From Natrinema sp. SYSU A 869 (GTDB lineage: Archaea; Halobacteriota; Halobacteria; Halobacteriales; Natrialbaceae), in NCBI RefSeq assembly GCF_019879105.1, contig NZ_CP082247.1:310001-374000 (forward strand): 64,000 nt of DNA, in the 5' to 3' direction. Below the pieces are notes generated by a model. It did not search any database. It was not told the DNA's origin and was given only the letters and a program-made list of their open reading frames with translations. Positions 19,867 to 57,415 of the stretch are shown in pieces (the first letter of the stretch is position 1; each line of letters begins with the position of its first letter). A program made the translations under genes and the position numbers.

Positions 19867-20212
19867 GCTGGTAACCGGTCATCTCTAATCCACATGCAAT
19901 TTTCACTGCACATCTTCTGGATCCGAACAGTCTGCCGTCCACTCCTTGACCGTCCCCGTTACTTCAGAGCACCCCCGACAGGCGGCGCGATGATGTTGAC
20001 ACAGTAGATAGAGGCCCAGTACACTCTAGTTAGAGTGTTAATCAGGCAGATAAACATCTAATACAGTTAGACAGAAAGCTATCAGCAGCCGGGCTCCACT
20101 GATCTCAACGAGTGTATGGAATAGTGGTCAGTGTCTGTATTCAAACCTTCCTGTTGGATATATTATAACTATTTATCCTTGCGAGTGGATTGCACGCATA
20201 GGGGGACAACTA

Positions 20213-20616
20213 ATGGCAGCGACAGAAAAAACCAACGTCGAGATCGCGGAGGAACTATACGAGGCATTCAACCAGGGCGACATCGAGACATGCCTGGCCG
20301 GATTCGCCGACGACATCACGTGGACCGAACCCGAGGAATCACCGATGATCGGGGGACACACCATGGCCCAGATGCAGTCCTGGAAAATGTGTTTACGCCA
20401 ATCGACGAGGAGTTCGACTCCTTCGAAGTAACTGTTGACTGATTCATCGACGGCGGCGACACCGTCGTGATGGAAGGTGCACACAGAGTCACCACAGCGG
20501 ACGGTGATGTCATGGAGATTCCTGCCGTCCATGTCTCTGACATGGAGGACGGGAAGGTCAAGAAATTCACCGGCTACGAGGATACCGCACTCGCCCAGCA
20601 GCTGATGGACGAGTGA
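20213..20616 (+). pseudogene. SnoaL-like gene, frameshifted copy
   Basis: Starts MAATEKTNVEIAEELYEAFN, nearly identical to the intact gene at 38267. It loses frame after MIGG near 20355 (bases missing around the VHHGP segment). The remainder continues in another frame: NVFTPIDEEFDSFEVTVD, an in-frame TGA where the intact copy has Arg, then FIDGGDTVVMEGAHRVTTAD to ALAQQLMDE. At least two lesions, so this copy is dead. About 250 bases of upstream DNA are also duplicated. Confidence 0.85.
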
Positions 20617-20917
20617 TCTCCGTCACTTCATCCATCAACCATATTACAAATTTTCGGTTTTTCTCCATCGCCGAACGATCAGTACAGGCTAAGCACACAT
20701 CGCTCAGTAGAGATGAGAGAATGACCAGTGGTAGGCCCAGAGTGTGATGATATGGGTGAAAACCATTCTTATAGGTCTGACGCACGTCTGACGATACACA
20801 GTGTGCGTCCGCTTTAACAAGCAGTGGACATCTCGTTGACGGCGTGCTGCCGTCCATTCCCGTGTTTTCCACGTGGTTCGCATACAGAACTCGCACTGGA
20901 ACAAGCGAACCCCAATA

Positions 20918-21232: not shown

Positions 21233-21513
21233 CCAATAGCAGACATTCAAAGCAATAAGGTATGTTGTTGAAGGAGGCCGACGCTGACCGGTTTTCTTCT
21301 CTGTCCGGTCTCTCCTTCACGTGATAGGGTGTCCAGCCTTATCTTAACTCTGTAGAGGGAATTTGAATGAACGTCCAGTTTCACGAACTTATAGCATATA
21401 TATGTGGTTTGGATGTCACGAGCAGTTCGCAGGTGTAGTGACCGGAAGCTCCACGAGATTAGATAGCTAAAGAAGAGAATTGCTATAGAGCCCTTTGATC
21501 TGAAGCTCGGTCT

Positions 21514-21807
21514 TCACAGAAGATCAGAAACGTACTGGTCTTCCCAGTCGCGTCGGGCCTTGATCTCGCGGGTTCCTCGTCGCGTCACCGAGTACACGTT
21601 CGTCCGGCGGTCGGCCTGCTCCTTTTCGAGAAGTCCTTTATCAACGAGTTCGTCCAGATTCGGGTAGAGTCGGCCGTGATGGATCTCCTTCTCGTAGTAG
21701 TCCTCAAGTTCTTCCTTGAGCGCGAGGCCGTGCGGTTCATCCAGTCCCGCAGTTACGTACAGGAGATCTCGCTGGAAACCGGTCAAATCGTACATATCAG
21801 ACCTCAT
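21514..21807 (-). CDS. PadR-like transcriptional regulator, copy 1
   Basis: 97 residues from ATG 21807 (MRSDMYDLTGFQRDLLYVTA), or 93 from MYDLTGF (21795), the start shared with the third PadR gene at 42853. The PadR core is complete: HGLALKEELEDYYEKEIHHG, RLYPNLDELVDKGLLEKEQ, and DRRTNVYSVTRRGTREI forming the wing. A palindrome covers the upstream edge of the start. Divergent from a HalOD1 gene; the whole pair is duplicated at 47908-48630. Confidence 0.88.
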   Translation of the reverse strand: MRSDMYDLTGFQRDLLYVTAGLDEPHGLALKEELEDYYEKEIHHGRLYPNLDELVDKGLLEKEQADRRTNVYSVTRRGTREIKARRDWEDQYVSDLL

Positions 21808-21822
21808 GGTGATTAGCACCAT
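21806..21822. promoter_or_regulatory. Candidate PadR operator
   Basis: ATGGTGATTAGCACCAT has 6-bp arms ATGGTG/CACCAT around five bases. It lies at the start of the PadR gene, between it and the divergent HalOD1 gene. The duplicated locus keeps it with one change (48200-48216). Autoregulation is inferred. Confidence 0.5.
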
Positions 21823-21930
21823 AAGAATAGGGATGACAATCCTCCGTCAAACATGAAAGACCGTGGCTCATTCAACAGAGTTTGCAAATCCTTTTCTGGT
21901 AGACTACTTCACTTCAGGGTCCATGGGAAG

Positions 21931-22236
21931 ATGAGCACACAGGTTAATACGGATGACTCTCAAGCTGAACTGACTCTATCTACTACTACTGAATGGAAGC
22001 AAGATACCGAGAATACGCCTGTCTATGCGGTTGTTTCGGCGGTTGCAGAAGCGTCTGGTCTGGATATGTTCGAGTTACCGTCACTCTATGAGGCGATCAA
22101 TCCGGACGCGTTGAACGAGTTGTTCACTTCTCGATCTGAGCCTGCTGTCGGCAAAGTGTCCTTCGAGTACGCGGGATACGATGTCGTCGTACGCGGAACC
22201 GGTGTGGTCGAGGTTCAAACGACGGACGACGACTGA
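21931..22236 (+). CDS. HalOD1 output-domain protein, copy 1
   Basis: 101 residues from ATG 21931 (MSTQVNTDDSQAELTLSTTT). HalOD1 features: TPVYAVVSAVAEASGLDMFE, then LPSLYEAINPDALNELF, then the hairpin VSFEYAGYDVVVRGTGVVEV. It stands alone without a receiver or kinase. Divergent from PadR. A second copy is at 48325. Confidence 0.82.
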   Translation: MSTQVNTDDSQAELTLSTTTEWKQDTENTPVYAVVSAVAEASGLDMFELPSLYEAINPDALNELFTSRSEPAVGKVSFEYAGYDVVVRGTGVVEVQTTDDD

Positions 22237-22341
22237 TCCCGGATCGATTCCCGGCCGTGACACGGATTCGGCGTACCGGTTCTTACATTTGAAGTGTGAG
22301 ATAGTGTAGAGGTCTTCAGCCAGCATCGGATCGCCCGTGTC

Positions 22342-37987: not shown

Positions 37988-38266
37988 GTCTACTTCCCAC
38001 GAACTACCTGTCTCCGTCCTTACCTCAGAGCGCCTCCGCCAGGCGGCACAACCACTGCTGACACAGTAGATAGAGACACAGTGCCCTATAGAGCGTCAAT
38101 CTTCAAGATGATTATCTCACGAGGTGACACGGAAAACTATCAGCAGCTTGGTCCCGCTGACATCAACGAGTCTCTGAAATAGTGGTCAGTGTCTCTATTC
38201 AGACCTTCCTGTTGAATCCGTGATAGCTATTTGTCCTTGATAGCCGTTGCCACAGATAGGGGTACC

Positions 38267-38671
38267 ATGGCAGCAACTGAGAAATCCAACGTCGAAATCG
38301 TCGAAGAACTGTACGAGGCATTCAACCAAGGCGACCTCGAGACATGCTTAGCCGGATTCGCCGACGACATCACGTGGACCGAACCCGAGGGCGCACCGAT
38401 GATCGGGGGAGTACACCACGGCCCAGACGCCGTCCTAGAGAATGTGTTCACGCCTCTAGACGAGACATTCGATTCCTTCGAAGTAGATGTCGACCGGTTC
38501 ATCGACGGCGGCGACACAGTCGTAATGGAAGGATCACATAGAGTCACCACAGCGGACGGTGATGTCACGGAGATTCCTGCTGTCCACGTCTCCGACATGG
38601 AGGATGGAAAGGTTAAGAAATTCACCGCCTACGAGGATACCGCACTCGCCCAGCAACTGATGGACGAGTGA
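38267..38671 (+). CDS. SnoaL-like protein, intact copy
   Basis: 134 residues from ATG 38267 (MAATEKSNVEIVEELYEAFN). Typical SnoaL segments: CLAGFADDITWTEPEGAPMI, GGVHHGPDAVLENVFTPLDE, DGGDTVVMEGSHRVTTADGD and AVHVSDMEDGKVKKFTAYED. The dead copy at 20213 and its upstream DNA are about 85% similar, so the pair arose by a segmental duplication of about 660 bp. Small-molecule ligand unknown. Confidence 0.88.
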   Translation: MAATEKSNVEIVEELYEAFNQGDLETCLAGFADDITWTEPEGAPMIGGVHHGPDAVLENVFTPLDETFDSFEVDVDRFIDGGDTVVMEGSHRVTTADGDVTEIPAVHVSDMEDGKVKKFTAYEDTALAQQLMDE

Positions 38672-38709
38672 CCGACACCACCTCATCCGTCACACCCGTC
38701 ACTCATTTT

Positions 38710-42164: not shown

Positions 42165-42482
42165 TTATCGTTTAGTATTGTCTTCTTGAGCGAGAACGCC
42201 GTAATTGATGTGAATCTCCGGAGTACTCGGTGATTCCGGTGCAGAAACACCATTCCAATCGACGGCGTGCACGTTCGTCATTTCGCCGGAGAATCTGAAC
42301 CGGTCGACCCCCGTTTCGATTGCTCCCTCCGCTGTCTGTTCTGAGACGATCACTGCCTCTTCCTCTGAGTTGGCATCGACCATCTCGATGGTGCCGTCAA
42401 CGCTAATTTCGTAGTTCGATGGTACTCCCCTGCCAACGATTGTAATGAGGTTTGGTAGCGTATCGTCAACTTCTGTCGGCAT
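42165..42482 (-). CDS. Haloarchaeal hypothetical, beta-rich
   Basis: 105 residues: MPTEVDDTLPNLITIVGRGV, PSNYEISVDGTIEMVDANSE, then RFRFSGEMTNVHAVDWNGV and the PSTPEIHINYG end. Regular alternation of strands. Similar conserved haloarchaeal proteins exist, without known function. Divergent neighbour is non-coding; the PadR gene follows upstream on the same strand, 95 bases away. Confidence 0.7.
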   Translation of the reverse strand: MPTEVDDTLPNLITIVGRGVPSNYEISVDGTIEMVDANSEEEAVIVSEQTAEGAIETGVDRFRFSGEMTNVHAVDWNGVSAPESPSTPEIHINYGVLAQEDNTKR

Positions 42483-42577: not shown

Positions 42578-42853
42578 TTAGAGTTCAACGTACTGGTTCT
42601 CCCACTCTCGTCGCTCCTGAATCTGTTGTTCGCCGGCGTCGGTGATGGCATAGTAATTTGTCCGGCGATCGAGCTGGCCTTTCTCTACCAGCTCTTTGTT
42701 GACGAGGGTGTCGAGATTGGGGTACAATCGGCCGTGATTGATCTCTGAGTTATAATATTTCTCAACTTCATCCTTGACGCTTTGGCCGGACGGCTGGTCG
42801 GCACCTGCGATGACGTACAGGAGGTCGCGCTGGAAGCCGGTCAGGTCGTGCAT
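42578..42853 (-). CDS. PadR-like regulator, third paralogue
   Basis: 91 residues from MHDLTGFQRDLLYVIAGADQ. Core PadR elements: GQSVKDEVEKYYNSEINHGR, LYPNLDTLVNKELVEKGQLD and RRTNYYAITDAGEQQIQER. About 60% identical to the pair at 21514 and 47908, but not linked to a HalOD1 gene. It may regulate the 42165 gene. Confidence 0.85.
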   Translation of the reverse strand: MHDLTGFQRDLLYVIAGADQPSGQSVKDEVEKYYNSEINHGRLYPNLDTLVNKELVEKGQLDRRTNYYAITDAGEQQIQERREWENQYVEL

Positions 42854-43910: not shown

Positions 43911-44792
43911 TCACCGGCGAGGTCCAGGCACTGGCGCTGGGAACGACTTGAAATCAGTGAGCAAGACGGAGATACCACCGTCATCGTCGGGTTGGATCAC
44001 GTACGACGTTGGGTACTTGTCAGCTGCAAGGTACCTCGTCGGTGTCTTCAACGAAGTATCAACCGTGGTAGTGAGTTGGTCAACGTAGTCGATCGTAACC
44101 ATCGGCTCGAATAGGGAGATTCGTCCCAAGCCACCACCGTCTGGTCCAGTGGCACCGTAGATATGCGTGTGAGTGAATTCACCGTCCTCTTGATGCTCCG
44201 ACGCACTCGGATCGGCGATCGGCTCACCTCGACCTGCCTCAACGAGTGGTGTATCAGGTTCTCCGTCGTTGGTGGTATCGACCACAGGTGGACGGATGTG
44301 ATCCTCAGGCATCTGGGCCTGCGGAATCGAATAGGTCGCTGGCCGTTCTTCGATCCCCGCGACGGTCGACTGGTCAGGCATGAAGAACTGGGTATCCAAG
44401 TGGGGCACGTCGTAGACTCCCTCTGGCCAATGCCCTTCTGGCAGGTAATCGAACTGCACGAAGGTGAACTGATGGCAATCGAGGGCGTCACCGCCGGCTA
44501 TCTCCGATGGGAAGGCAAGCGGGACTGCCACCTCCTCCTCACCTAACGTATCAATTACGGCCTTATCGAAATGCACGCCGAGTGACGAGAGAGCGCCGTC
44601 CGACGCCGTTGTTGCGTATGCCGTCACCATCCCATTGCCGACCGCGGCCGAGTCGCCTCTGTGGACCTGTTGTGACTCCGACGCAGACGCGCTAGCGGTC
44701 CCGGTCACGAGACTGCCACTGGCTATAATCGCCGCCGTTTTCAGCATCCTTCGTCGGTCAATACGTCTCTGCTGATTCGCTGGTCGTGACAT
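43911..44792 (-). CDS. Secreted DUF5602-type protein (Tat signal)
   Basis: 293 residues. Twin-Arg signal RRIDRRRMLKTAAIIASGSL. Mature region: GNGMVTAYATTASDGALSSL, GVHFDKAVIDTLGE, then FDYLPEGHWPEGVYDVPHLD TQFFMP, which matches the TTHB210/DUF5602 barrel. A C-terminal ISVLLTDFKSFPAP segment is partly duplicated downstream. Divergent from the winged-helix gene at 44937, which may regulate it. Confidence 0.8.
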   Translation of the reverse strand: MSRPANQQRRIDRRRMLKTAAIIASGSLVTGTASASASESQQVHRGDSAAVGNGMVTAYATTASDGALSSLGVHFDKAVIDTLGEEEVAVPLAFPSEIAGGDALDCHQFTFVQFDYLPEGHWPEGVYDVPHLDTQFFMPDQSTVAGIEERPATYSIPQAQMPEDHIRPPVVDTTNDGEPDTPLVEAGRGEPIADPSASEHQEDGEFTHTHIYGATGPDGGGLGRISLFEPMVTIDYVDQLTTTVDTSLKTPTRYLAADKYPTSYVIQPDDDGGISVLLTDFKSFPAPVPGPRR

Positions 44793-44936: not shown

Positions 44937-45770
44937 ATGGCCAACCATCGTCACGCGCTACCAACAAACATGGAATCGGCACTGGACGCGATCCAGTTCT
45001 TCGCCGATTCAGCGAACAGCGTGCGCGTGTTCGAGGCACTCACCGCCGGGCCGATGAGGAGCCGCGACCTCGCAGAGCAAACCGGCGCCTCACGGTCAAC
45101 CGTCGCACGAGTCCTAGACAAGGGTGAATCACGAGGGTGGATCACCTCCGAGGGGAGCCAGTACGAACTTACAGAGGTAGGTGAGATCATGATCGCTGAG
45201 TTTCGTGTCTATCTGCAGACTCTCGAGGGAATCCAGCATCTCAGTGACGCTATTGAGTGGCTTCCAGAACCTGTTCACTCAATTGATTACCGCCATTTCC
45301 GTACCACAGAGATCATAACGCCGAAGACACCGGCCCCAGCCGAGCCGTACGATCACGTGGCAGAGAAGATTCGCGCTACAGATGAGGTCCGCTCACTTGT
45401 TGAGGTCACGCTGCCTCGATATGTGAGGCTTATCTATGAGGAGGTTAACGAGCGGCAGTTGGAGTCTGAACTCGTGATCGACGCGGACTGGATCAAGACT
45501 CTCTCTGCGGGGTCAGAGCAGTTGCCGCTGTTGCAGGCCCGTGCAGAGCGGGGTAGCATCTGGACCTATGAGGGGGAGATTCCACTGAATATGCACCTCT
45601 TTGATGACTCAGTGGCAATTTGGTTAGGTGAAGAACTTGAGGGCGAACGGGTTGTTCGGGGATTATTGGTCGCTGAGGCCTCAGCCGTTATATCGTGGGC
45701 GGAAGAGCTGTATGAAGACTATCAAGCCGAAGGGGAGCTGCTTGACCCAGAGACGTTACCTGCGGAGTGA
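44937..45770 (+). CDS. Winged-helix transcriptional regulator with C-terminal effector domain
   Basis: 277 residues. ATG 44937 or 44970. Residues about 25-85 hold a wHTH: NSVRVFEALTAGPMRSRDLA, EQTGASRSTVARVLDKGESR, GWITSEGSQYELTEVG. The remaining 190 residues form a regulatory domain typical of haloarchaeal/methanogen TrmB-like regulators (ELVIDADWIKTLSAG; VAIWLGEELEGERVVRGLLV). Divergent from the secreted protein gene. Confidence 0.88.
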   Translation: MANHRHALPTNMESALDAIQFFADSANSVRVFEALTAGPMRSRDLAEQTGASRSTVARVLDKGESRGWITSEGSQYELTEVGEIMIAEFRVYLQTLEGIQHLSDAIEWLPEPVHSIDYRHFRTTEIITPKTPAPAEPYDHVAEKIRATDEVRSLVEVTLPRYVRLIYEEVNERQLESELVIDADWIKTLSAGSEQLPLLQARAERGSIWTYEGEIPLNMHLFDDSVAIWLGEELEGERVVRGLLVAEASAVISWAEELYEDYQAEGELLDPETLPAE

Positions 45771-47754: not shown

Positions 47755-47907
47755 TGCGCTGTGTATTCAGCATGGATCCATCAAAATAAGTGGTATTTGA
47801 CAGATGAACCGCGTTAGATTCGCATGTCTTAGTGACTGGTGGCTTCACAGACTTAGATAGCGAAAGAGGAGAACAACAACAGAACTCTTTAATTTGAAGT
47901 TCGGTCT

Positions 47908-48201
47908 TCAAAGGATATCAGAAACGTACTGGTCTTCCCAGTCGCGTCGAGCTTCGATTTCCCGTGTGCCTCGTCGCGTCACCGAGTACATGTTCGTTCG
48001 ACGATCGGCCTGCTCCTTTTCGAGAAGTCCTTTATCAACGAGTTCGTCCAGATTCGGGTAGAGTCGGCCGTGGTGTATCTCCTTCTCGTAGTAGTCCTCA
48101 AGTTCTTCCTTGAGCGCGAGGCCGTGCGGTTCATCCAGTCCTGCAGTCACGTACAGGAGGTCGCGCTGGAAACCGGTTAAATCGTACATATCAGACCTCA
48201 T
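47908..48201 (-). CDS. PadR-like transcriptional regulator, copy 2
   Basis: 97 residues from ATG 48201 (MRSDMYDLTGFQRDLLYVTA), almost identical to copy 1 at 21514. Changes are few and mostly conservative (NVYSV/NMYSV; IKARR/IEARR; SDLL/SDIL). The palindrome ATGGTAATTAGCACCAT lies at its start. Divergent from the HalOD1 copy at 48325. Confidence 0.88.
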   Translation of the reverse strand: MRSDMYDLTGFQRDLLYVTAGLDEPHGLALKEELEDYYEKEIHHGRLYPNLDELVDKGLLEKEQADRRTNMYSVTRRGTREIEARRDWEDQYVSDIL

Positions 48202-48324
48202 GGTAATTAGCACCATAAGAATAGGGATGACAGTTCTCCGTCAAACATGAAAGACCGTGGCTCATTCAGCAGAGTTTGCAAATCCTTTATGGTGGACTGC
48301 TTCACTTCAGGGCCCATGGGAAAG

Positions 48325-48630
48325 ATGAGCACACAGGTTGATAATGACGACTCTCAAGCTGAACTGACTCTATCCACTACTGCCGAATGGAAGAAGGATA
48401 CCGAGAATACACCTGTCTATGCGGTTGTTTCGGCGGTGTCAGAAGCGTCTGATCTGGACATGCTTGAATTGCCGCCACTCTATGAGGCAATCAATCCGGA
48501 CGCGTTGAACGAGTTGTTCACCTCCCGATCTGAGCCTGCTGTTGGCGAAGTTTCCTTCGAGTATGCGGGGTACGATGTTGTTGTGCGCGGAACTGGTGTG
48601 GTCGAGGTCCGGACATCGGTTGACGCCTAA
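48325..48630 (+). CDS. HalOD1 output-domain protein, copy 2
   Basis: 101 residues from ATG 48325 (MSTQVDNDDSQAELTLSTTA). Same core as copy 1: TPVYAVVSAVSEASDLDMLE, LPPLYEAINPDALNELF, VSFEYAGYDVVVRGTGVVEV. Substitutions are spread evenly, so both copies appear to be under selection. Confidence 0.82.
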   Translation: MSTQVDNDDSQAELTLSTTAEWKKDTENTPVYAVVSAVSEASDLDMLELPPLYEAINPDALNELFTSRSEPAVGEVSFEYAGYDVVVRGTGVVEVRTSVDA

Positions 48631-48690
48631 TCGCGGATCTGTTATCTAACTGCGTTCGTGGCTGGCCAGTTCTACCAGTATCTCTACCAT

Positions 48691-55924: not shown

Positions 55925-57415
55925 ATGCAACTCGTTCTTTCCACGTCACACGTCCAACAGCTCCGGGACCACCTGTTGCAGGACGACCAGGAGCGGATCG
56001 CCGTCGTCCATTGCAGTACGTCCGGCGGCGACCACGCTCACCGCGAAACGCGGCTGCTCGCCACGGCGGTCCACCCGGTACCGGATGCTGACCTGGAAAC
56101 GCAGAGCCGGTCGGCATGCCGTCCCGCGCTCGACGTGGAACGCGACATCACGGCGGACTGTCGCCGTCACGGCATGCACCCGATCGTTATCCACAGCCAT
56201 CCCTTCGACGCGACGCCGACGTTCAGTCGCAGCGACTCCGACATGATGGACGGCTACCGGGAGTGGCTGACCGGGCTCTACCCCGATATGCATCTCGGTG
56301 TCGGCGTCCTCGGGACCCACGGCCTCGCCACCGTGATCGTTCCTGCGGCTGCGGACCAGTTCACCGACCTGCCTGTCACAGTGGTCGGCGACTGGCTGCT
56401 CGACCCACCGCTCACCACGGGACCCGCCTGCGATACTCCAGAGACAGACACGGTGAACGGTGGCACCCCCGGTTCGATCGACCGGGAACGGTACGACCGC
56501 AGCATCCGCGCCCTCACCACATCCGGCCAACACCGGCTGGCCACGACCCCCATCGCTGTCGTCGGCATAGGCGGCCTTGGATCGATCATCGCCGAGGAAC
56601 TTGCGCGGTACGGCGCTCACCGGCTGACCGTGGTCGATCCCGACGTCATCGAACCGTCGAACCTACCCCGGCTGTTCGGCTGCCATGCAGACCACGTCGG
56701 CGACCCGAAAGTCTCGGCCATCAAACAGCACCTCGAGCGTCTCAACCCGCAGATGGAGATCAGTGCAGTCCAGGCCATGGCCGAAGACGTCCCGGACCTG
56801 CTGAAGGCGGTGGATCTCATCGTTGCCGGTGTCGACCGTGTCTCCGCACGGATGTGGCTGAACCAGTTCGCGGCTCGCCACCTCGTCCCCTACGTGGACG
56901 CGGGGATGGTCATCGACGTTGACGACGACCCGGACACGCAGCAGATTACTGCGATGGAAGGCTACATCCAGCTGATCGCACCGGGTGCCACCGCCTGCTT
57001 CGACTGCCTTGGCCGCGGTGACCCGGAACAGGCCCGCATCGAACACCTGTCCGACGACGCTCTGGCCGAGGAGCTGGACCGCGGCTACATCACGGCAACC
57101 GACTTGGCGCCGGAACCGGCCGTCGTCCCACTCAACGGAATTATCGCGTCGAAAACAGTTCAGTTACTGGCCAAACAGATCACGGGGTACGATGATCCGG
57201 CGGCATCCCTCCGGTTCGAGGGCCTTGATAACGTGCTGGTGGAAACTCGCACGATACCGAGCGACAACTGCCCTACCTGCGGCGGCAACGGCATTCTCGG
57301 GCGCAGCGACACCACTGCGACCAATCCAGACCGCATCGATACCAACGACCTGGACCTCAGTCTCGCTCTAGAAACCGAGCCCACCGGAGGGAAGGACACG
57401 GAGGAACAGCCATGA
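55925..57415 (+). CDS. Fused JAB/JAMM peptidase and ThiF/E1 activating enzyme
   Basis: 496 residues. Residues about 1-165 are a JAB domain with HRETRLL for the Glu and the full JAMM motif HxHP-x7-S-x2-D in IHSHPFDATPTFSRSDSDMM. From about 185 the ThiF/E1 domain follows: PIAVVGIGGLGSIIAEELAR with GxGGxG, LTVVDPDVIEPSNLPRLFG, VDLIVAGVDRVSARMWLNQF, then ACFDCLGRG and CPTCGG as the Cys-pair zinc or active-site elements. In other systems JAB and E1 are usually separate proteins; fusion links maturation or deconjugation with activation. Acts on the beta-grasp protein (inferred). Confidence 0.9.
   Translation: MQLVLSTSHVQQLRDHLLQDDQERIAVVHCSTSGGDHAHRETRLLATAVHPVPDADLETQSRSACRPALDVERDITADCRRHGMHPIVIHSHPFDATPTFSRSDSDMMDGYREWLTGLYPDMHLGVGVLGTHGLATVIVPAAADQFTDLPVTVVGDWLLDPPLTTGPACDTPETDTVNGGTPGSIDRERYDRSIRALTTSGQHRLATTPIAVVGIGGLGSIIAEELARYGAHRLTVVDPDVIEPSNLPRLFGCHADHVGDPKVSAIKQHLERLNPQMEISAVQAMAEDVPDLLKAVDLIVAGVDRVSARMWLNQFAARHLVPYVDAGMVIDVDDDPDTQQITAMEGYIQLIAPGATACFDCLGRGDPEQARIEHLSDDALAEELDRGYITATDLAPEPAVVPLNGIIASKTVQLLAKQITGYDDPAASLRFEGLDNVLVETRTIPSDNCPTCGGNGILGRSDTTATNPDRIDTNDLDLSLALETEPTGGKDTEEQP

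Follow-up and report, generated by a model that had tools for sequence, protein, structure and literature searches.

The window, that is, the whole 64,000-nt stretch analysed, spans positions 310001-374000 of contig C1 (891 kb) in a genome of 5.67 Mb that consists of three contigs. It contains two copies of a divergent gene pair, in which a PadR-family gene (PF03551) on the minus strand faces a gene for a HalOD1 domain protein (PF18545) on the plus strand. The repeated block had been proposed from the sequence and is borne out: positions 21426-22245 (copy 1) and 47819-48639 (copy 2) align with 88.7% identity over 823 columns. A third PadR gene at 42578, which had likewise been predicted, matches PF03551. 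The features are as follows.

21514..21795, minus strand: PadR1 copy 1, 93 aa, RosR-like winged helix (PF03551, 55.3 bits)
47908..48189, minus strand: PadR1 copy 2 (PF03551, 54.5 bits; 97% identity with copy 1)
21931..22236, plus strand: stand-alone HalOD1 copy 1, 101 aa (PF18545, 76.9 bits, scored on the longer ORF)
48316..48630, plus strand: HalOD1 copy 2 (PF18545, 77.3 bits, scored on the longer ORF)
21806..21822, no strand: palindrome ATGGTG-N5-CACCAT, exact, copy 1
48200..48216, no strand: palindrome site of copy 2, ATGGTA-N5-CACCAT, one mismatch
21819..21825, minus strand: putative PadR TATA-like box CTTATGG, 24-30 nt before the PadR start, its role assigned from position
21850..21865, plus strand: AACATGAAAGACCGTG, candidate cis element of copy 1, the longest perfect spacer run in close relatives
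48244..48259, plus strand: AACATGAAAGACCGTG element of copy 2
21890..21899, plus strand: HalOD1 TATA region of copy 1, altered to CCTTTTCTGG (most relatives have CCTTTTATR)
48284..48292, plus strand: HalOD1 TATA region of copy 2, CCTTTATGG
42578..42853, minus strand: PadR3 (PF03551), found near the pair in L172 (G255), L174 (G335), L201 and L173
42165..42482, minus strand: 105-aa protein, partner of PadR3, no Pfam or NCBIfam match

Here, G, C and L numbers are our labels for genomes, contigs and loci, G000 being the genome of the window. The family assignments are clear for both copies, with E-values of 6.5e-15 and 1.2e-14 for PadR1 (curated cut-off 27 bits) and of 1.3e-21 and 1e-21 for HalOD1 (curated cut-off 26.3 bits), the latter consisting of one domain of about 101 aa. 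Judged against relatives, the gene starts implied by the original prediction lie too far upstream. The listed PadR reading frame of copy 1 reaches 21822; a start at 21795 with the sequence MYDL agrees with the relatives, and the PadR genes most likely begin there and at 48189 in copy 2. Based on the G255 and G211 loci, the HalOD1 protein of copy 2 has 104 aa if it starts at ATGGGA (48316) or 101 aa if it starts at ATGAGC (48325), and the start in copy 1 has been displaced through a 1-nt deletion relative to the relatives. The start at 21853 of the listed 127-aa HalOD1 reading frame was rejected as the protein start, since indels among the two copies, G255 and G211 break the frame. We consider its first 26 codons as spacer because they are in frame only through indels that are absent from relatives.

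A PadR gene that faces its neighbour is a familiar arrangement, and PadR opposite a stand-alone HalOD1 gene had been proposed as a recurring unit. Our survey supports this proposal, as the pair is conserved elsewhere. Within this genome, a profile search yielded 33 PadR matches (28 above the cut-off) and 41 HalOD1 matches (39 above the cut-off). Only three of the 41 HalOD1 matches lie less than 1 kb from any of the 33 PadR matches, and all three are divergent; these are the two window copies and C2:5694/6238, located on the two smaller contigs. Relatives of the HalOD1 subfamily (E<=1e-22) were detected in at least 17 of 392 genomes of the order and at least 17 of 125 genomes of the family, which are lower bounds because 12 candidates per genome were scored in the order sample and up to 39 in the family sample. 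Together they cover at least 19 different genomes, all of them in the window's own family. We compared 32 HalOD1 loci, representing 32 of 33 distinct places after the near-duplicate G276:C1:630 was dropped. Significant divergent PadR homology is found within 300 bp upstream in 15 of the 32 (12 full-length, three truncated or internally deleted), and the other 17 have no significant PadR match within that distance. As HalOD1 is interrupted at one of the 12 loci with full-length PadR (G335:C2), there are at least 11 intact pairs in at least seven genomes and three genera. PadR and the HalOD1 domain are separated by 214-218 bp in 11 of the 15 loci and by 269-272 bp in the remaining four, which makes two tight classes. 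Four further pairs were found on plasmid records, namely phalar01 of halophilic archaeon DL31 (in NCBI unclassified within Halobacteriales), pHTS220 of Haloterrigena salifodinae and two plasmids of Halomontanus rarus. The pair belongs to the haloarchaea and mainly to the window's own family; it is real, recurrent and mostly carried on secondary replicons, and it combines known families in a known orientation.

When the comparison starts from PadR, the association is looser. Among the best 80 of the nearest PadR relatives in a GTDB scan, three face HalOD1 and a fourth has HalOD1 elsewhere within 3 kb, where some of these loci end at contig edges. Over 101 PadR loci compared, HalOD1 is nevertheless the commonest cluster of divergent neighbours (six loci vs four for the next cluster), and these six belong to one HalOD1 lineage, with three coming from this genome. 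Since HalOD1 is retained at loci whose PadR is broken or missing, and no more than three of the best 80 PadRs face HalOD1, we conclude that neither gene requires the other.

By sequence, PadR1 is a homologue of RosR (VNG0258H) of Halobacterium salinarum. The phmmer alignment to hsRosR (6qfd) covers 83 residues (residues 3-85, E=2.4e-23), and PadR1 has in common with RosR the PadR-type winged helix and a near-identical recognition segment, HGRLYPNLD.LV.KGL.EK. Structures of hsRosR are available as PDB entries 6qfd, 6qh0, 6qil, 6qua and 6ez1, some of which we take to be DNA complexes. The motif predicted for RosR is TCG-N-CGA (PMC3443676). PadR1 differs from RosR here, as this motif occurs in one of the 17 spacers compared and is absent from both copies in the window, and a role in oxidative stress is without support. 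PadR1 is small like the PadR-s2 regulators LmrR and bcPadR1, whose ATGT/ACAT operators differ from the window spacers; the consensus ATGT-N8-10-ACAT is found in none of the 17 spacers, and the closest sequence in copy 1 is the predicted palindrome with six of eight letters. The LmrR operators are reported to lie within the lmrR and lmrCD promoters, and a gel-shift assay (EMSA) on the intergenic region is described for bcPadR1 (PMC3506622). The same source gives a precedent, in LmrR, for small PadRs that act at their own or a neighbouring promoter.

The HalOD1 proteins of the window have the same domain and short architecture as other stand-alone HalOD1 proteins (PF18545). Up to 49 copies of this domain are reported for a single genome, some haloviruses have it as well, and it is counted among the components of the haloarchaeal signalling network, with unknown activity (PMC5847659). 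The word 'PadR' is absent from the main text of that paper, and the pairing seems undescribed, as we found no paper naming both PadR and HalOD1 in the literature searched. Published data exist for two other HalOD1 proteins: Haloferax volcanii needs DdfA (HVO_2176) for its disk shape (PMC10869688), and HVO_0777 was reported to increase about tenfold at 0.9 M salt (PMC12852389). These findings transfer no function to the HalOD1 subfamily of the window. The window proteins contain HalOD1 as does DdfA, and they score 77.9 and 80.5 against the NCBIfam model NF053557 'DdfA' (cut-off 70). Yet this match is not specific to orthologues: the model matches 57 of 57 diverse HalOD1 proteins tested, and seven of ten scored singly exceed the cut-off. 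As all 57 match, the model does not single out DdfA orthologues. We set the orthologue reading of the window proteins aside as non-specific, and haloarchaeal DdfA annotations may be over-general. In the genes flanking the window copies we recognised neither rdfA nor the SMC-like sph3, the neighbours of DdfA; the flanking genes gave matches to DUF7344 and CBS, and there are in addition a protein that resembles cupins but stays below the Pfam cut-off and one of 162 aa that has no match. An AlphaFold2 model of HalOD1 built from 57 sequences was of moderate quality (mean pLDDT 72.8, pTM 0.58). Both structure comparisons with this model were uninformative: Foldseek found nothing at E<=0.001 (best E 1.4), and the best Z in VIA was 4.3, where the many chains matched include PAS, roadblock and YeeU. 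A profile search of PDB sequences with HalOD1 returned a designed protein at E=0.0054 and another at 0.17. Viral relatives of HalOD1 copy 2 were absent from 50,697 phage records (E<=1e-3), and the IMG/VR candidates contained no confirmed relative in a search that reaches close relatives.

The original prediction placed a palindrome shared by both copies between the two genes and implied that PadR binds it. The palindrome is exact in copy 1, whereas copy 2 carries a mismatch (ATGGTA). Because PadR most likely starts at 21795 and 48189, the palindrome would lie within the PadR promoter, and its overlap with the PadR TATA-like box may explain part of the ATG...CAT symmetry. As a shared operator it did not hold up. 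Across 20 spacers it is exact in one, has one mismatch in copy 2 and deviates at 3-5 of 12 positions in the other 18. In the 17 ungapped PadR upstream regions, which leave out G000:C2 and two G368 loci with indels, its arms form six of six pairs in one region, five of six in copy 2 and one to four of six in the other 15. It also lies in a less conserved part of the spacer, with perfect columns at 7 of 17 positions in the palindrome vs 64 of 114 in the remaining spacer. Over the palindrome, 12-base windows have a pairwise identity of 0.66-0.72 among six close relatives. For comparison, third codon positions of HalOD1 reach 0.758, and identity is equally low (0.63-0.67) in a few more spacer windows of this size. 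When the alignment columns of the 60 bp upstream of PadR were permuted in 200 shuffles, chance produced an equal or better dyad with 6-bp arms at p=0.145 when copy 1 was considered alone and at p=0.21 for the two copies together. Other conserved 6-bp-arm dyads in the PadR promoters did not rise above the shuffles either (best p=0.675 in seven close relatives and 0.905 in 17). We thus rejected the palindrome as a conserved operator. The locus G347:C23 was left out of the dyad test, since its full-length PadR, 381 bp away, adjoins a 105-aa partner and looks like PadR3, and the nearer PadR fragment is insignificant (E 1100). Separately, three sibling PadR loci without HalOD1 (L034, L036, L039) carry inverted arms TCGGAAT...AT(T/G)CCGA about 30 bp apart around the TATA box, which were spotted by eye and represent a candidate autoregulatory operator.

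Another part of the spacer is better conserved. The element AACATGAAAGACCGTG is identical in all seven close spacers, both window copies included, and its run length exceeds that of column shuffles (p=0.0014). In this genome, its 14-base core is found in the two window copies only, as are matches to CATGAAMRAYYGTG; the promoter stretch TTTGG..CTTTTAT is found at the C2 pair only. With 0-3 mismatches and a mononucleotide-shuffle p<=0.02, the core is present in 11 of the 32 HalOD1 loci. These are the seven close loci (PadR is broken in three of them), G335:C2, and three without working PadR (G335:C1, G240:C3, G205). The element is identical despite PadR damage in G255, G211:C3 and G211:C2:314, and it has one to three mismatches in L150, L189 and L191. 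As it outlives PadR, AACATGAAAGACCGTG most likely belongs to the HalOD1 side and is probably read by another factor. As a general signal its reach is limited, the element being undetectable in several more distant pairs; among the 32 loci, the core is not significant in G000:C2, both G368 pairs, G377, G249 and most HalOD1 loci without PadR. On the other side of the spacer, the PadR-proximal 35-44 bp are kept in L062, L071, L073 and L078, which are PadR relatives with no HalOD1 found upstream, and this suggests a PadR autoregulatory site. L067 also keeps this stretch, and its contig ends 418 bp upstream.

The two copies have been diverging for some time. Between them, PadR has dN 0.014 and dS 0.349 (dN/dS about 0.04), and HalOD1 has dN 0.054 and dS 0.480 (dN/dS about 0.11). 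Purifying selection thus acts on both genes, and the divergence of the copies is old. Furthermore, the HalOD1 gene of G255, which comes from another genus, has 90% nucleotide identity with copy 2, more than the 87% between the two window copies. Compared with a recent origin, separate arrival or an old duplication is the better fit for the two copies.

The pair is also unstable. PadR is cut short or internally deleted with HalOD1 still open in G211:C3, G211:C2:314 and G255, and a PadR relic of about ten codons accompanies an open HalOD1 in G240:C3. Conversely, HalOD1 contains a stop in G335:C2, and in L072 the retained stretch runs from PadR across the spacer and the HalOD1 promoter into the first few HalOD1 codons, after which the gene is missing. 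Copy 1 itself shows signs of decay, with the altered HalOD1 TATA region, the shifted start and a SnoaL-like neighbour broken into two frames. The PadR of G211:C2:190 looks chimeric: over the first 90 bases it is nearer to copy 1 (40 and 38 of 45) than to L118 (35 and 35), and after base 90 it is nearer to L118 (41-44 of 45) than to copy 1 (32-37). In the PadR tree, which is limited by few columns and many open forks, the HalOD1-linked PadRs do not form one clade, with seven label changes of which at least five are forced by supported branches. The label is still clustered, as none of 500 shuffles gave as few changes, to which near-copies contribute.

The third PadR is connected with the pair through its gene neighbourhood. 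PadR3 has 63% identity over 90 aa, and its 105-aa partner is kept beside a PadR in L172, L174, L192 and L201 and also in L042 and L046 of this genome. On pHTS220, the genes that come after the pair encode a SnoaL-like protein, a protein of ~298 aa and a FilR-like regulator; then comes a gene for a ~103-aa protein, with a second PadR at its side. All have counterparts in the window: the SnoaL-like gene at 38267-38671 (70%), the ~298-aa protein at 43911-44792 (75%), the FilR-like regulator at 44937-45770 (80%), the ~103-aa protein at 42165-42482 (68%) and the second PadR at 42578-42853 (82%). In G377 and G249, HalOD1 is followed by the SnoaL gene and part of the ~293-aa protein, where the locus ends. 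In G255 and G335, PadR3 and the 105-aa protein are among the genes flanking the pair, and in G347 a homologue of the 105-aa protein adjoins a nearby PadR. From these loci, we conclude that the third PadR belongs to the neighbourhood of the pair, which has been rearranged in the window.

Several transposase genes lie in the window. Inverted paralogous blocks at 7695-8754/13261-14320 and 9668-10609/38710-39651 (87-89% identity) hold transposase genes. The SnoaL-like gene is intact at 38267-38671 (block 38020-38696); a second copy, broken into two frames, lies in block 19959-20640, about 1 kb away from copy 1 of the pair, and the two blocks are 82% identical. This genome also contains three same-strand tandem PadR-PadR pairs 640-680 bp apart (C2:699254/699894, C2:462173/462811 and C1:133439/134122), with an internal stop in the second match of two of them. 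A ThiF/E1-type protein of 496 aa (55925-57415) matches many PADLOC E1-E2 models.

We interpret the locus as an accessory, often plasmid-borne pair, in which a RosR-like PadR controls itself and damps HalOD1 across the shared spacer, and we give this reading a probability of about 0.5. Back-to-back promoters, positioned such that the transcripts would have no leader or almost none, would drive PadR and the gene of the ~100-aa HalOD1 protein in divergent directions. A PadR dimer most likely binds within its own promoter and thereby would control itself; damping of HalOD1 across the short spacer is a weaker expectation than this self-control. In close relatives, HalOD1 may also depend on the upstream AACATGAAAGACCGTG, and the HalOD1 protein could serve as a protein-interaction output. 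Local control by PadR is the simplest reading because of the back-to-back promoters and the short spacer, and this architecture makes it plausible that PadR controls HalOD1. Also in favour are the recurrence of intact pairs, the two spacing classes, the purifying selection on both genes, the RosR homology, the PadR-proximal stretch kept without HalOD1 and the LmrR precedent. Several observations speak against it, namely that no dyad stands out, that canonical PadR and RosR sites are absent from the spacers of both copies, that PadR is lost with HalOD1 open, and that the HalOD1-linked PadRs are not one clade.

Some of the same observations would be expected if PadR regulated only itself or distant targets and HalOD1 were a passenger at a plasmid hot-spot with a promoter and a regulator of its own. 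HalOD1 and the element upstream of it outlast damage or loss of PadR, the PadR promoter sequence is kept without HalOD1, and the association is infrequent both among the best 80 PadR relatives and among the 41 HalOD1 matches of this genome. However, a passenger does not readily account for a divergent order and two tight spacing classes that are kept over three genera, or for HalOD1 being the top divergent neighbour cluster, albeit through one lineage; we regard this explanation as possible but doubtful. That the two copies merely reflect a recent local duplication without wider meaning could be argued from their position on the same replicon, 26 kb apart, amid paralogous blocks and some transposases, but the old divergence and the closeness of the G255 HalOD1 to copy 2 make this very improbable.

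Co-location and purifying selection on both genes would also agree with HalOD1 being a protein partner of the facing PadR, as a co-regulator or anti-repressor in a signal-responsive switch. Dispensable switches would allow the separate loss of either gene, whereas the chimerism of the G211:C2:190 PadR and the loss of PadR with HalOD1 intact argue against an obligate partnership; we consider such a role unlikely. Its mobile form, in which HalOD1 is the signal partner of the RosR-like PadR and persists with its promoter while the regulator is swapped, chimeric or lost, appears to us similarly speculative. Small divergent genes in several copies on secondary replicons might further recall an addiction pair of the toxin-antitoxin kind, and the HalOD1 model resembles E. 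coli YeeU (2h28, Z 3.5) weakly and non-significantly, among many other chains. But a PADLOC scan of the copy-1 proteins returned 0 families, and a toxic HalOD1 restrained by PadR is disfavoured since HalOD1 is open with PadR broken in G255, G211:C3, G211:C2:314 and G240:C3, unless a PadR paralogue substitutes. Of the explanations considered here, we give an addiction pair the least credence.

In haloarchaea, the signalling-type domain HalOD1 is highly amplified, and its biochemical role is given as not known in the literature we drew on. If HalOD1 were indeed the signal partner of PadR, this would be the first defined regulatory circuit for a HalOD1 protein. The pair is a compact, recurrent and genetically tractable unit with a nearby candidate regulator, which makes it a place to ask what controls HalOD1, and the natural copies with a broken PadR allow a comparison of HalOD1 after control has been lost.
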